Shown here in pieces: positions 57,118 through 63,169 of a stretch of 64,000 nt of DNA. Source of the DNA: Clostridium sp. NkU-1 (GTDB lineage: Bacteria; Bacillota_A; Clostridia; Lachnospirales; Lachnospiraceae); assembly GCA_001312405.1 (NCBI GenBank), contig BBDR01000012.1:62001-126000 (forward strand). The letters are read 5' to 3'. Position 1 is the stretch's first letter; every line of letters begins with the position of its first letter. A program made the position numbers and the translations under genes. The notes beneath the pieces were generated by a model, which was not told the DNA's origin, made no database searches, and worked only from the letters and a program-made list of their open reading frames with translations.

Positions 57118-57729
57118 TTATGGTCCTATGGTAACTGGTACGCCTAAATTACAGTAGCTCCATAATACATCCATGTCATTATTGTCCACTGCAACGCAGC
57201 CATGAGTGGTTCCGTCAGGAACCCTGCAGCCATGAATCTCAATGGCTCCTCCAAGGGGCGTATCCCATGGCGGCTGCTTGCCTTCCTTATTGGCCTTTAT
57301 TATTTCATCTCTCTGGGCCTCTGTGATAATACCATCCGCATATCCTCTTTCCGCATCTTTAATGGCCGGATAGGAAAGGCCCAATGCAAGGTAAGCCACG
57401 CTCTTATCATTTCTGGTACATACATAGAACTCCCCGCTGGGTGTTCTCATATCTCCCTCTACCTTTTTATTTCCTTCTGCTGAAGCCGCGCCCAGGGAAA
57501 CCGGGTATTCGGCAATCAAGACTCCATTCTGCTTTAATGAAAGTGTCTTCGTTCTCTTGCTCACATATATGGTCACGTTATTTGTTGAACCGGAATTGCC
57601 GGAGGTAATATTGGCACCGGGACCGGATACCGGCTCTGCGTACCCTGTAACAAGGGAAGATGCCGCCAAAGCGATGACCAGAATGGCTGAGATAAGACAC
57701 TTATATCCTTTTCCTGCCCATTTCATCAT
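57118..57729 (-). CDS. L,D-transpeptidase (YkuD family), secreted
   Basis: Intact, about 203 residues. The start is ATG 57729 with AGGAG before it. Signal peptide LISAILVIALAASSLVTG ends near YAEP. The YkuD domain begins IYVSKRTKTLSLKQNG and carries the catalytic site as IEIHGC and, later, TTHGCVAVDNNDM (His and Cys). It cross-links peptidoglycan stems or attaches proteins to the wall. Confidence 0.92.
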   Translation of the reverse strand: MMKWAGKGYKCLISAILVIALAASSLVTGYAEPVSGPGANITSGNSGSTNNVTIYVSKRTKTLSLKQNGVLIAEYPVSLGAASAEGNKKVEGDMRTPSGEFYVCTRNDKSVAYLALGLSYPAIKDAERGYADGIITEAQRDEIIKANKEGKQPPWDTPLGGAIEIHGCRVPDGTTHGCVAVDNNDMDVLWSYCNLGVPVTIGP

Positions 57730-57835
57730 TCTTAACACTCCTTTTTTGTTACATTATACCATCCATTTTGGAAACTATCATTTACAATATTCTTACATTT
57801 CCATCCAAAATTTACCGTTTTATATATTCATCTGT

Positions 57836-59313: not shown

Positions 59314-59342
59314 AAGCATCCTGCAAAATCTGCAGAATGCTT
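59314..59342 (-). terminator. Terminator of the MerR gene
   Basis: On the minus strand AAGCATTCTGCAGA / TGCAGGATGCTT form a stem of about 10 bp followed by TTTATTATT. It overlaps the MerR stop codon region, so the TrmO-like gene needs its own promoter. Confidence 0.8.
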
Positions 59343-60155
59343 ATATTTTCTCCAATGGTATCTGGATTTCAGTCAGGTAGTTTTGAGGGCTATCCTCATT
59401 CCAGGGTCCTCGATGGACAATCTGCCTGCTCTGTCCCCTCATTTTATATTGGTTATGTGCCTGCAGCCAGTCTGCAAAAGCAAGATATGCACCCTTTATG
59501 TTTTCAAAAGAGCCATATACCATAGTACAGGCCATAATGGGCACTGGTTCTGTATTTCTATAGGTAAAGCCACACAGATCCTTTCCTGTTCTGGCTACGG
59601 GAGCGCATATTTCAATGTCAACGCCCGTTTCTTTATAATCCGTATCATGATAGACCGCAAAGGTATTGGCTGAAATAGGGATATTATTTTCTTCTGCAAA
59701 GGCCGACATTTCTTTCCACAGCTGACCCTCGGCATAATAATCCCGGACCACCCGCCTTAAAGAAAACACCTGATAGCTGGGTATGGATTTAATGGAAACA
59801 TTGTAATGTATCGCAATCTTTTCCTGTAAAATATCTCTCTTTGCAAGCTCGATTTTAGATAGCCTGGCCTGCTCCGCTCTTATGGCATCCTCAATTTCCA
59901 GACGCTTATGATCAAGCTGATTTGTTATAAATTCATCATCCAATGATTAAGGGCATCCATAATTTCAGAGACTGTAAATCCTAAGTCCCGTAAGAATATT
60001 ATTTTATTTAAAACAGGGATCTGTTCTGTGGAATATAGCCTGTAGCCTGTAAATTTATCTATTTCCGCAGGTTTTAATAACCCTGTTTCATCGTAGTATC
60101 TTAGCATTCGAATCGATACCTGAGTTAATTTGGAAAACTCTCCTATTTTAAACAT
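59341..60155 (-). CDS. MerR-family regulator with GyrI-like effector domain (frameshifted)
   Basis: About 271 residues. ATG 60155 follows GGTGG. N-terminal winged helix: MFKIGEFSKLTQVSIRMLRY, with FTGYRLYSTEQIPVLN; a coiled-coil linker; C-terminal GyrI-like/AraC-binding domain (about 120-271) with MVYGSFENIKGAYLAFADWL. One missing T near 59942 joins the parts (ALNHLDDEFITN). Its structure is that of BmrR-type regulators that bind lipophilic drugs. It probably acts on the promoter at 59276-59306. Confidence 0.88.
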
Positions 60156-60381
60156 GTGCACCACCTCTATAAGGACTGATTATACCGCAAGCAGAATCAA
60201 ACTGCAAATATTATACATTCCTCATCTGCCGGTTGATCTTCAATGAGCTTCCGGGGAAAAGGCGTTATAAAAAAAATTTATGCAACATTATCCCGTTCTT
60301 ATTTGTATATAAGACATAACCGTAAAAAGAGGTTACTGAATAGTCACAAACATACCATGAAAACTGAAAGGAAAAATCATT

Positions 60382-61339
60382 ATGAAAAAAACTTACTGCG
60401 ATTGCCCTCTGCGCCGTCACGGCATTATCCTTTACCGCCTTCTCAAACAATGTTCCTGCAAAGAATAACATAAAGCAGAGAGACGATCAGGTCATCAAAG
60501 GCGATAACCTGAAAATTCCAAACCCTTTTACTGATTGCAAGGCCATTACAGATGTCCAGATACTTGCCGGTTTTACCCCATTGATCCCAACCAGCATTCC
60601 TGCTGATTATTCTCAGGATAAAATTCAGACCGTTAAAGATGAAATGGTGCAGATCATATATTCCAATGGTGAAAATAAAATAACTTTCCGCCAGGGAAAA
60701 GGCAGCGAAGATATCAGCGGCGACTATAACCAATATGCCGAGAGCAGCACCATGGCAGTCGGCAGCTTAACAGTATCAACCAAAGGCTGCAACGGAAAAG
60801 TAAATATTGCCGCCTGGACCAATGGGAAATACACCTTTGCTATTTCCGCAAATCCCGGCGGAGAAGGTCTTGACAATAAAGTAATCAGCGATATGATTAG
60901 CAGTATAAAAGCAGAGAGTGATATTGACGAAACAGTACAAATTCCCAATCCTTTTAAAGACTTTCAATCGATTGGGGATGCGGAAAAAATGGCCGGTTTC
61001 ACTCTGACCCTTCCTGAAAAAATGCCGAAAGGTTATGTACAGGAGTCCATCCAAGCCATTGCAGGTGATATGATACAGGTATTTTATAAAAATGGCGAAA
61101 AGAGAATTTTAATCCGTAAGGCAAAGGGAAATGAGGATATCAGCGGTGACTATAGCGAATATGGGGAAAACAGGACTTTAACTGTTGGCAGTTTACAGAT
61201 ATCGGCCAGAGGAAACCATGGCAAAGTAAATACCGTCACATGGGTAAATGGGGATTTCGCTTACTCTGTCTCTGCCGGATTTGATGAAGAAGGTTTTGAT
61301 ACAACTACGATCAGTGATATGGTAAGCGGTATCCGCTAG
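60382..61339 (+). CDS. Secreted protein with two DUF4367-like repeats (frameshifted start)
   Basis: About 318 residues. GAAAGG precedes ATG 60382. Correcting one base in the A7 run gives KLTAIALCAVTALSFTAFSNN, a Sec signal peptide. Two repeats of about 125 residues follow (about 50-175 and 185-310). Each starts with an IPNPF motif, carries SGDYNQYAESST or SGDYSEYGENRT and ends in a KVN-x6-NG segment and an ISDM motif. The same SGDY-type motif is found in the anti-sigma protein at 62039-62659. It is 77 bp upstream of the ECF sigma gene on the same strand. Confidence 0.75.
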
Positions 61340-61361
61340 AATAACAAAAGATGACAGAAAC

Positions 61362-61392
61362 ATGGCGATACTGTCAGTCACAGTACCGCCAT
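61362..61392 (+). promoter_or_regulatory. Intercistronic hairpin
   Basis: ATGGCGATACTGT / ACAGTACCGCCAT form a 13-bp stem (one mismatch) with a 5-nt loop between the DUF4367 repeat gene and the sigma gene. No T tract follows, so it is more likely a processing or attenuation site than a full terminator. Confidence 0.6.
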
Positions 61393-61415
61393 ACGTCTAT
61401 TCAAGGAGAGACTGT

Positions 61416-62049
61416 ATGATTGAACTATGTAAACTGCCCAGCGGACTATGGAAATGTATCAGTTTCCTAAAGGAGTTTATTTATTCGCTGTTATGCTTTG
61501 TGCTTTATGGGGACAAGTGGGAAAGCAGCAAAAAAAAGAACACCCATGCCCGACGCTTTGCGTTCTGCACAAATGAATGAACAGGCCGGGCGATTAATGA
61601 CAGACTATGGAAACCATGTTCTGCGCCTTGCATACTCTTATCTGCATAATATGAGTGATGCAGAGGACGTTTTGCAGGATACGCTGATACAATTTATTAA
61701 AACACAGCCTCAGTTTGAAACGGCTGACCATGAAAAAGCATGGGTTCTGCGTGTTGCGATAAACCTAAGCAAGAATAAGATTACCTACAACAAAATCCGA
61801 AAAACCGATGAACTTAGCGATACTTTGGCGGCAAATGAAACGGAGGATCTGACTTTTGTATGGGATGCAGTGAAACAACTGCCATCAAAATACAGAGAAG
61901 TTGTACACCTTTATTATTACGAGGGCTGCTCTACGGCTCAAGTCGCTTCCCTGCTATCCAAAAAGGAAGCAACGGTTCGTTCCTTGCTCCAAAGGGCCAG
62001 ATTAAAGCTTAAAGACGTGTTGAAGGAGGTGTATGATTTTGAAGAATAG
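61416..62049 (+). CDS. ECF RNA polymerase sigma factor, possible N-terminal extension (frameshifted)
   Basis: The best RBS (AAGGAGAG) precedes ATG 61416, but that frame ends at 61580; removing one A from the A8 run near 61535 joins it to the sigma frame. That adds about 45 residues including a hydrophobic stretch (FLKEFIYSLLCFVLYGD). Otherwise the protein starts at 61546 or 61576 without an RBS. Sigma blocks: LAYSYLHNMSDAEDVLQDT (region 2) and YYEGCSTAQVASLLSKKEAT (region 4). The anti-sigma gene overlaps its 3' end. Confidence 0.82.
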
Positions 62050-62659
62050 GTATGATAAAGTGATGAATAATCTTGAAGTCACTGTGGAAATGCGTGATAG
62101 AATCCTGACCAATATAAACAGACTTGATTGGAATAAAATTCCAATCAAGAGAATTCCTTTTTCCAATTACAAAAAGTACCTTTCCATCGCCGCTTGTTTC
62201 ATGCTTTTACTGGTTGGTTCTGTCTTTGTTCAAAACATGATCAATTGGACCAAGGAGCCGCCTCAGCAGGCAATCCCGGATATTGTAGAGTACCCTTCCG
62301 CTCATGAGCTGTCGAAAGCAGTTGGATTTACTGTAAAGGAAATTCAGGATGTACCGTTTGAAGTGCAAACGGTACAATATACCGCTTACTGGAAGGAGCT
62401 GTCGCAAATTCGGTACATTGGCCGGAATAATACGGTTGTATTAAGGATGGCTGCTGGCAGCAAGGATGTAAGCGGAGATTATACTGTATACACCGATATA
62501 AAAAGCATTACGGTCAACGGTCACAGTATCACATTAAAGGGGGATGCCAATAAGTATCGTACTGCAGTTTGGCAGGCCCAGGAATACTCATACTCTGTAC
62601 AGTTTACCGAAGGGATTTCTGAACAGGAAATGCTGAACACCTTACAGAGCGTGGAGTAA
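62039..62659 (+). CDS. Membrane anti-sigma factor with C-terminal DUF4367-like domain
   Basis: About 206 residues. I chose TTG 62039 because AGGAGG is 8 bp before it; ATG 62033 is too close to that RBS. Cytoplasmic part of about 45 residues, one helix (YLSIAACFMLLLVGSVFVQN), then an extracellular DUF4367-like domain beginning YPSAHELSKAVGFTVKEI, with VSGDYTVYTDIKSITVNG and ending TEGISEQEMLNTLQSVE. It probably holds the ECF sigma factor encoded upstream (11-bp overlap) at the membrane. Confidence 0.82.
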   Translation: MKNRYDKVMNNLEVTVEMRDRILTNINRLDWNKIPIKRIPFSNYKKYLSIAACFMLLLVGSVFVQNMINWTKEPPQQAIPDIVEYPSAHELSKAVGFTVKEIQDVPFEVQTVQYTAYWKELSQIRYIGRNNTVVLRMAAGSKDVSGDYTVYTDIKSITVNGHSITLKGDANKYRTAVWQAQEYSYSVQFTEGISEQEMLNTLQSVE

Positions 62660-62837: not shown

Positions 62838-63169
62838 ATGGCAAAGTTTGAATTTGAATACACAGAGATTGATGGGTTATTGTATTCCAACATTGAAATT
62901 GACGGAAAAATTGAGTTTGACAACTTGGGTAAGTATGGACGACTTCGTCTGAATTACCTTCACGAACAAAAGCCGGGAATGTACAGGGAATTGCTTTTTA
63001 GCAGAAGTTGGTGGAGCATTGCATCAAGGTGGAAAGAGTAGCATTTGCCCGAGCAGAATGTATCCGCACCAACTATCTGAAACGCTATCCCATGCCCATG
63101 GAGGACACGATGGAGCGCATTCGCATCTCCACACAAGCGCAGGACATCGCGGATGGAATTGTAAATTAG
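62838..63169 (+). CDS. TnpV-like transposon protein (frameshifted)
   Basis: About 110 residues. ATG 62838 follows GGAGG at 12 bp. MAKFEFEYTEIDGLLYSNIE, then LGKYGRLRLNYLHEQKPGMY, and after a repair near 63003 KLVEHCIKVERVAFARAEC to the end DIADGIVN. The pattern resembles small TnpV-type proteins of conjugative transposons in Firmicutes, assigned from memory. Function unknown. It suggests that the right end of the window enters a mobile element. Confidence 0.6.

Follow-up and report, generated by a model that had tools for sequence, protein, structure and literature searches.

A clostridial ECF sigma/anti-sigma module with a linked exported protein of the sensor's own domain family, DUF4367

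In the window (the whole stretch of 64,000 nucleotides analysed here), a gene for an exported protein precedes an ECF sigma factor gene and its anti-sigma gene, which raises the question of why a domain of the kind that a membrane-bound anti-sigma factor displays should also be exported, in tandem, by its neighbour. The answer favoured here, tentatively and at a little below an even chance, is that the locus is a self-contained ECF module for sensing and neutralising something extracellular. The parts of the module, together with proteins from other genomes that lie under the same promoter, are collected in Table 1.

Table 1. Features of the module in the window, and proteins found under the same promoter elsewhere
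Feature	Location	Strand	Remarks
ECF-type promoter TGCAAC-N17-TGTATA, 5' of the module	60281..60309	+	0 mismatches; sole exact site within the window
Exported two-repeat DUF4367 protein	60382..61339	+	signal peptide; no lipobox cysteine; ATG and body out of frame
DUF4367 repeat 1	60512..60910	+	limits approximate
DUF4367 repeat 2	60938..61336	+	limits approximate
Hairpin separating exported gene from sigma gene	61364..61390	+	81-nt stretch, folding z-score -2.9
ECF sigma factor	61416..62049	+	Sigma70_r2 8.6e-12; Sigma70_r4_2 3e-15
Anti-sigma factor	62033..62659	+	N-terminal segment; 1 predicted transmembrane helix; external DUF4367 (residues 80-208)
Cystatin-like double repeat under promoter	L142 3516-4205		QVVAGTN
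Cystatin-like double repeat under promoter	L167 743-1444		QVVAGTN
Cystatin-like double repeat under promoter	L192 175-888		QVVAGTN
Cystatin-like double repeat under promoter	L083 3120-4298		QVAAG
DUF4349 proteins after promoter	L101, L107, L171, L172, L174, L193, L202

The two halves of the exported protein were 46% identical across 136 residues (E 5e-50) and thus form a tandem repeat. Pairwise comparison of this protein with the external domain of the anti-sigma factor gave 27% identity across 113 residues (E 4e-13), the two local alignments of the exported repeats to that domain having E-values of 4e-13 and 5e-13, and profile-profile comparison gave a probability of 99.9% (E 7e-32). Both proteins passed the gathering cut-off of 22.1 bits for DUF4367 (PF14285), with 30.2 bits for the exported protein and 24.0 bits for the anti-sigma factor, in agreement with the initial annotation, according to which the upstream gene encodes two repeats of the anti-sigma's external domain type. 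The structure predictions that it had proposed gave, at high confidence, a common fold for each domain (strand, helix, seven strands, helix), not unrelated ones, and conserved residues, namely S-G, a later G, A-x-W, R and D, were common to the exported domain and the sensor. A sequence search of solved structures found none of a DUF4367 protein. The annotation had also regarded the repeats as a copy of the sensor, which did not hold: in a tree, 19 sampled sensor domains formed one clade, separate from the exported domains, so that the repeats did not arise recently from their own sensor; an origin of the exported gene by recent sensor duplication was rejected.

ECF regions 2 and 4 were both found in the sigma factor, which matched TIGR02937 with 74.1 bits (cut-off 42.9). 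The anti-sigma gene lies directly 3' of the sigma gene, and its product has, by sequence and structure model, the architecture of the transmembrane anti-sigma type (N-terminal segment, transmembrane helix, external domain). The listed frame of the sigma gene is open from 61498, the N-terminal part (61416 to about 61530) is encoded in a different frame, and the gene probably starts at the ATG at 61416 rather than at 61498. Judged by eye, sigma relatives from Lacrimispora carry an N-terminal extension of about 45 residues ahead of region 2 (61416-61530 in the window). The hairpin between the exported gene and the sigma gene lies in an 81-nt stretch with a folding z-score of -2.9; counterparts were present in loci L081 (z -3.7) and L082 (z -2.9), and none was seen in L027 (z -0.1) or L083 (z 0.3). 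It may raise the expression of the first gene, and an attenuator is possible.

The ATG of the exported gene (60382) is out of frame with the signal peptide and the repeats, the break falling within a run of A residues right after the ATG. An intact full-length relative, P0002, which is 97% identical, is present on another contig. Compared with the related genome G009, single-base homopolymer differences also affect the adjacent MerR gene and, it appears, the region around the N-terminus of the sigma factor (in the comparison with L079). The MerR-family regulator itself (59341-60164, - strand) is split into two frames by its difference from G009, and this split and the nearby homopolymer differences indicate an error-prone assembly. 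Because of the intact relative and the similar differences close by, the break in the exported gene is read as a sequencing-type error, which it probably is, and a broken frame as real biology was set aside. The protein P0003 implies yet another length of the A run, though, judged from the protein sequence alone, it seems to be frame-shifted at its C-terminus as well; phase variation at the A run is possible.

Whether the linkage recurs was surveyed in loci found via the anti-sigma factor, counting only matches that had both a sigma gene and a DUF4367 signal. A DUF4367 gene adjoined 13 of the 20 DUF4367-type sigma/anti-sigma loci that were read with wide surroundings (present in G006, G009, G015, G022, G024, G096, G401, G219, G423, G560, G654, G677 and L028; absent in G202, G226, G247, G363, G575, G607 and G788). 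The count becomes 13 of 24 if four divergent loci are included that were seen with flanks of only about 0.5 to 1.5 kb and had no neighbour there (G064, G216, G290 and G208). Left out were the window, G145 (found via the exported protein), two loci at contig ends (G334 and G440), as well as 10 of the 48 match rows of the anti-sigma search, the places of which were unread; the remaining rows were either read or pointed to places already covered. The co-occurrence that the initial annotation had proposed to survey thus recurs beyond this locus. The nearest genomes belong to one genus, Lacrimispora (Lachnospiraceae, class Clostridia), in which 5 of 25 genomes have the anti-sigma factor, all 5 with a DUF4367 neighbour, while 8 of the 25 have the lipoprotein and no detected anti-sigma factor, one of these eight (G011) being just 67% complete. 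The arrangement extends from Lacrimispora to other families of the class, and related proteins are named from Paenibacillus. Contigs of equal length among the matches suggest that further linked pairs of exported protein and anti-sigma factor may exist, Paenibacillus included.

A promoter sequence was common to these loci. The motif TGCAAC-N17-TGTAT, derived by eye from 11 upstream regions, was found, when one mismatch among its 11 positions was allowed, 5' of 25 of the 27 module genes examined, for which start codons were placed manually, some of them after the motif was known. The two exceptions were L085, at a contig start with little upstream sequence, and L147, with an uncertain start codon. 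Among the 11 deriving regions, the promoter was missing at two internal starts of sigma genes, one in the window and one in L081; it was found in 14 of the 16 regions not used for its derivation. With patterns read backwards as the control, matches numbered 9 against 1 in 25 genomes and 16 against 0 in 298 genomes; 53 matches fell in 26 of 333 genomes, the control giving 2. Separate promoter copies precede the sigma gene and the exported gene in G015 and G145, and in G575, where the exported DUF4367 gene lies 1.9 Mb from the sigma gene, each has its own copy. Judging from this pattern, we propose that the sigma factor transcribes its own operon from TGCAAC-N17-TGTAT. Among the lipoprotein-only genomes the promoter was kept in two (G003 and G016) and lost or decayed in six of the eight; G007 has an additional promoter copy free of mismatches, after which comes a remnant that lacks a start codon.

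In other Clostridia, genes after the promoter encode sigma factors, serpins, a PrcB_C lipoprotein, a PepSY protein and lipoproteins assigned to no family. There were 49 distinct first open frames after promoter matches, some of which are chance matches inside genes; 20 of these were scanned, plus four (L100, L101, L107, identical to L160, and L149, identical to L163). The commonest named family was DUF4349 (7 of the 24 scanned, with a lipobox in 5 of the 7). Serpins stand behind the promoter in G324, G093 and G470, and at about 0.2 kb (G713) and about 2.8 kb (G544) downstream of a promoter copy; the presence of a serpin alone was not counted as evidence, since 144 of 333 genomes carry one. Three serpins near the promoter or its sigma gene, L197 (G470), L234 (G544) and L235 (G713), come from a single genus, g410, in which promoter copies number up to 9 per genome. 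In G607, a lipoprotein with two cystatin-like repeats, each containing QVVAGTNY, lies between the promoter and a DUF4367-type sigma/anti-sigma pair, and in G096 the first gene consists of two such repeats (QVAAG) fused to DUF4367. QxVxG is the signature of the cystatin inhibitory loop. The double repeats fell below the Pfam cystatin cut-off or were unmatched, and single members gave weak matches or none; when solved structures were searched with a profile of seven repeats, 12 matched up to E 1, of which 11 were cystatins (best E 0.0093).

The product of the first gene had been described at the outset as secreted and soluble. This holds for the window protein, which has a signal peptide and, like P0002, no lipobox cysteine, and for a minority of its relatives; it does not hold generally, as a pattern search of the best 120 among 1,060 relatives detected a lipobox in 82, at least 3 of the other 38 carrying one outside the searched stretch. 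About two dozen relatives of the two-repeat form, mostly of 303 to 324 residues, top the 1,060 matches, with sources including Anaerocolumna jejuensis, L. sphenoides, Clostridium merdae and unclassified Paenibacillus. Other relatives have a single repeat, sometimes preceded by a copper amine oxidase N-terminal-like domain. The pairs P0006/P0034, P0007/P0043 and P0013/P0053, each on contigs of equal length, suggest that some loci hold a two-repeat lipoprotein together with a single-repeat form free of a lipobox. One single-repeat DUF4367 protein without a lipobox, encoded at 4198-4773 of L080 (G015), lies 3' of the anti-sigma gene and has its own promoter. Three genomes of the genus encode separate DUF4367 proteins (L029, L030 and L031), open frames of about 240 residues with much stronger Pfam scores.

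The circumstance that related switches adjoin genes for enzyme inhibitors suggests a circuit that senses a harmful external agent and mops it up. Homology, linkage, a common promoter sequence, predicted export and retention without a detected sensor are read from the genomes; a common target, proteolytic activation and a neutralising function are what we infer. The anti-sigma factor would keep the sigma factor at the membrane and present its DUF4367 domain outside, where it would be engaged by an extracellular target; a hostile enzyme or another macromolecule is the likeliest candidate. The anti-sigma factor would then be lost, probably through regulated proteolysis, and the freed sigma factor would transcribe its own operon from the module promoter. 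The first product, an exported protein that is built of this domain, frequently as a tandem, and frequently carries a lipid anchor, would bind the same target and capture or inhibit it, closing a negative feedback loop. Sensing and capture is favoured over a shield like RseB, an ordinary regulon member and a pure decoy because the exported gene has the module promoter, its domain has residues conserved with the sensor, eight genomes retain it without a detected sensor and, in a few genomes elsewhere, inhibitor-like proteins occupy the same slot. A more far-reaching version, which we regard as distinctly doubtful, is an anti-enzyme immunity circuit of Clostridia, in which the DUF4367 domain of the anti-sigma factor would be a bait for extracellular proteases or wall enzymes, for example from competitors or the host, and the co-regulated DUF4367 protein an unrecognised inhibitor family, swappable with serpins and cystatin-like lipoproteins inside one ECF promoter class.

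Among the alternatives, the one that survives best, although unlikely, takes the exported protein as a partner like RseB, which would bind the external domain of the anti-sigma factor, block the site-1 protease and release upon signal binding. RpoE/RseA/RseB of E. coli and AlgU/MucA/MucB of Pseudomonas likewise encode sigma factor, anti-sigma factor and partner together, and DUF4367 may resemble the C-terminal domain of RseB; we know of no domain that RseA and RseB have in common. MucB has a half-barrel N-terminal domain and offers a precedent for a ligand-gated partner (PMC7400510). Neither RseB nor MucB has a convincing sequence relationship to the module's DUF4367 proteins. TM-scores were about 0.2, a Foldseek search with only the anti-sigma model had no match at E <=0.001 and listed RseB no higher than rank 16, and RseB was absent both from the Pfam matches of the window proteins up to E 1 and from the 25 of 112 families listed. 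Alignments to E. coli RseB by hhalign had E-values of 0.11 and 0.13. With a profile of 116 enterobacterial RseB sequences, the local score of 21.9 was higher than that of any of 60 column shuffles (best 19.6); the match, however, covered 17 columns at a probability of 3%, other runs of this comparison gave 0.1%, and the matched stretch was out of structural register by rough estimate. Sequence homology to RseB is thus unsupported. The first repeat is, moreover, another DUF4367 and no LolA-like half, and both the eight genomes without a detected anti-sigma factor and the missing neighbour at 7 of 20 anti-sigma loci argue against such a partner.

It is quite improbable that the exported protein is an ordinary regulon member with some envelope task, its domain common by ancestry only and its ligand different from the sensor's; the diverse lipoproteins behind the same promoter in other Clostridia and the separate clades would fit this, but not the observation that the neighbour of a DUF4367 sensor is itself DUF4367 in 13 of 20 loci. 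More improbable still is the decoy of the initial annotation, merely competing for the sensor's ligand and setting a threshold, for although the common domain, the valency raised by tandem copies and the lipobox-free lineage of the window would suit it, the protein is kept in the eight genus genomes without a detected sensor (the incomplete G011 among them), most of its best relatives have a lipobox, and protease-inhibitor-like genes hold the same slot elsewhere.

Several known systems resemble the module in part. The sensor domain of BlaR1 is related to beta-lactamase, the secreted product under its control; BlaR1 is not part of a sigma/anti-sigma pair, and its output is an enzyme. SigV/RsiV of Bacillus subtilis, in which the anti-sigma factor is a lysozyme receptor, likewise combines an ECF sigma factor with a membrane anti-sigma factor and an external sensor in Firmicutes, and to our knowledge no protein built from the RsiV sensor domain is co-encoded there. 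RsiV carries DUF4179 (PMC6066255), unlike the DUF4367 of the module; DUF4179 was not found in the anti-sigma factor of the window, in which DUF4367 was the sole Pfam family reported up to E 1. In SigP/RsiP/PbpP of Bacillus thuringiensis, a separate external protein, PbpP, is required for ECF activation; it is a penicillin-binding protein and, in contrast to the module's product, is not made from the anti-sigma domain (PMC8092216). Searches of the open-access literature found no paper on DUF4367 and none on a Lacrimispora anti-sigma factor; the one paper that came up for anti-sigma factors together with decoys and lipoproteins concerned Streptomyces proteomics. The parts are of known kinds and, as far as this search shows, the re-use of a sensor domain as a co-regulated exported product is a new arrangement.

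What emerges is an ECF design whose output protein consists of the domain that the sensor itself uses; for DUF4367, an uncharacterised family, this supplies a promoter sequence, a regulatory setting and a role that can be tested. If the inhibitor reading is true, DUF4367 would represent a new inhibitor fold, and these Clostridia would be able to induce a shield on their surface that protects them from enzymes. Elsewhere in the window, the gene at 57118-57738 on the - strand encodes an exported protein whose C-terminus contains HGC and, judged by eye, is L,D-transpeptidase-like, and a short frame at 62838-63164, apparently interrupted, seems to resemble transposon-encoded TnpV-type proteins.
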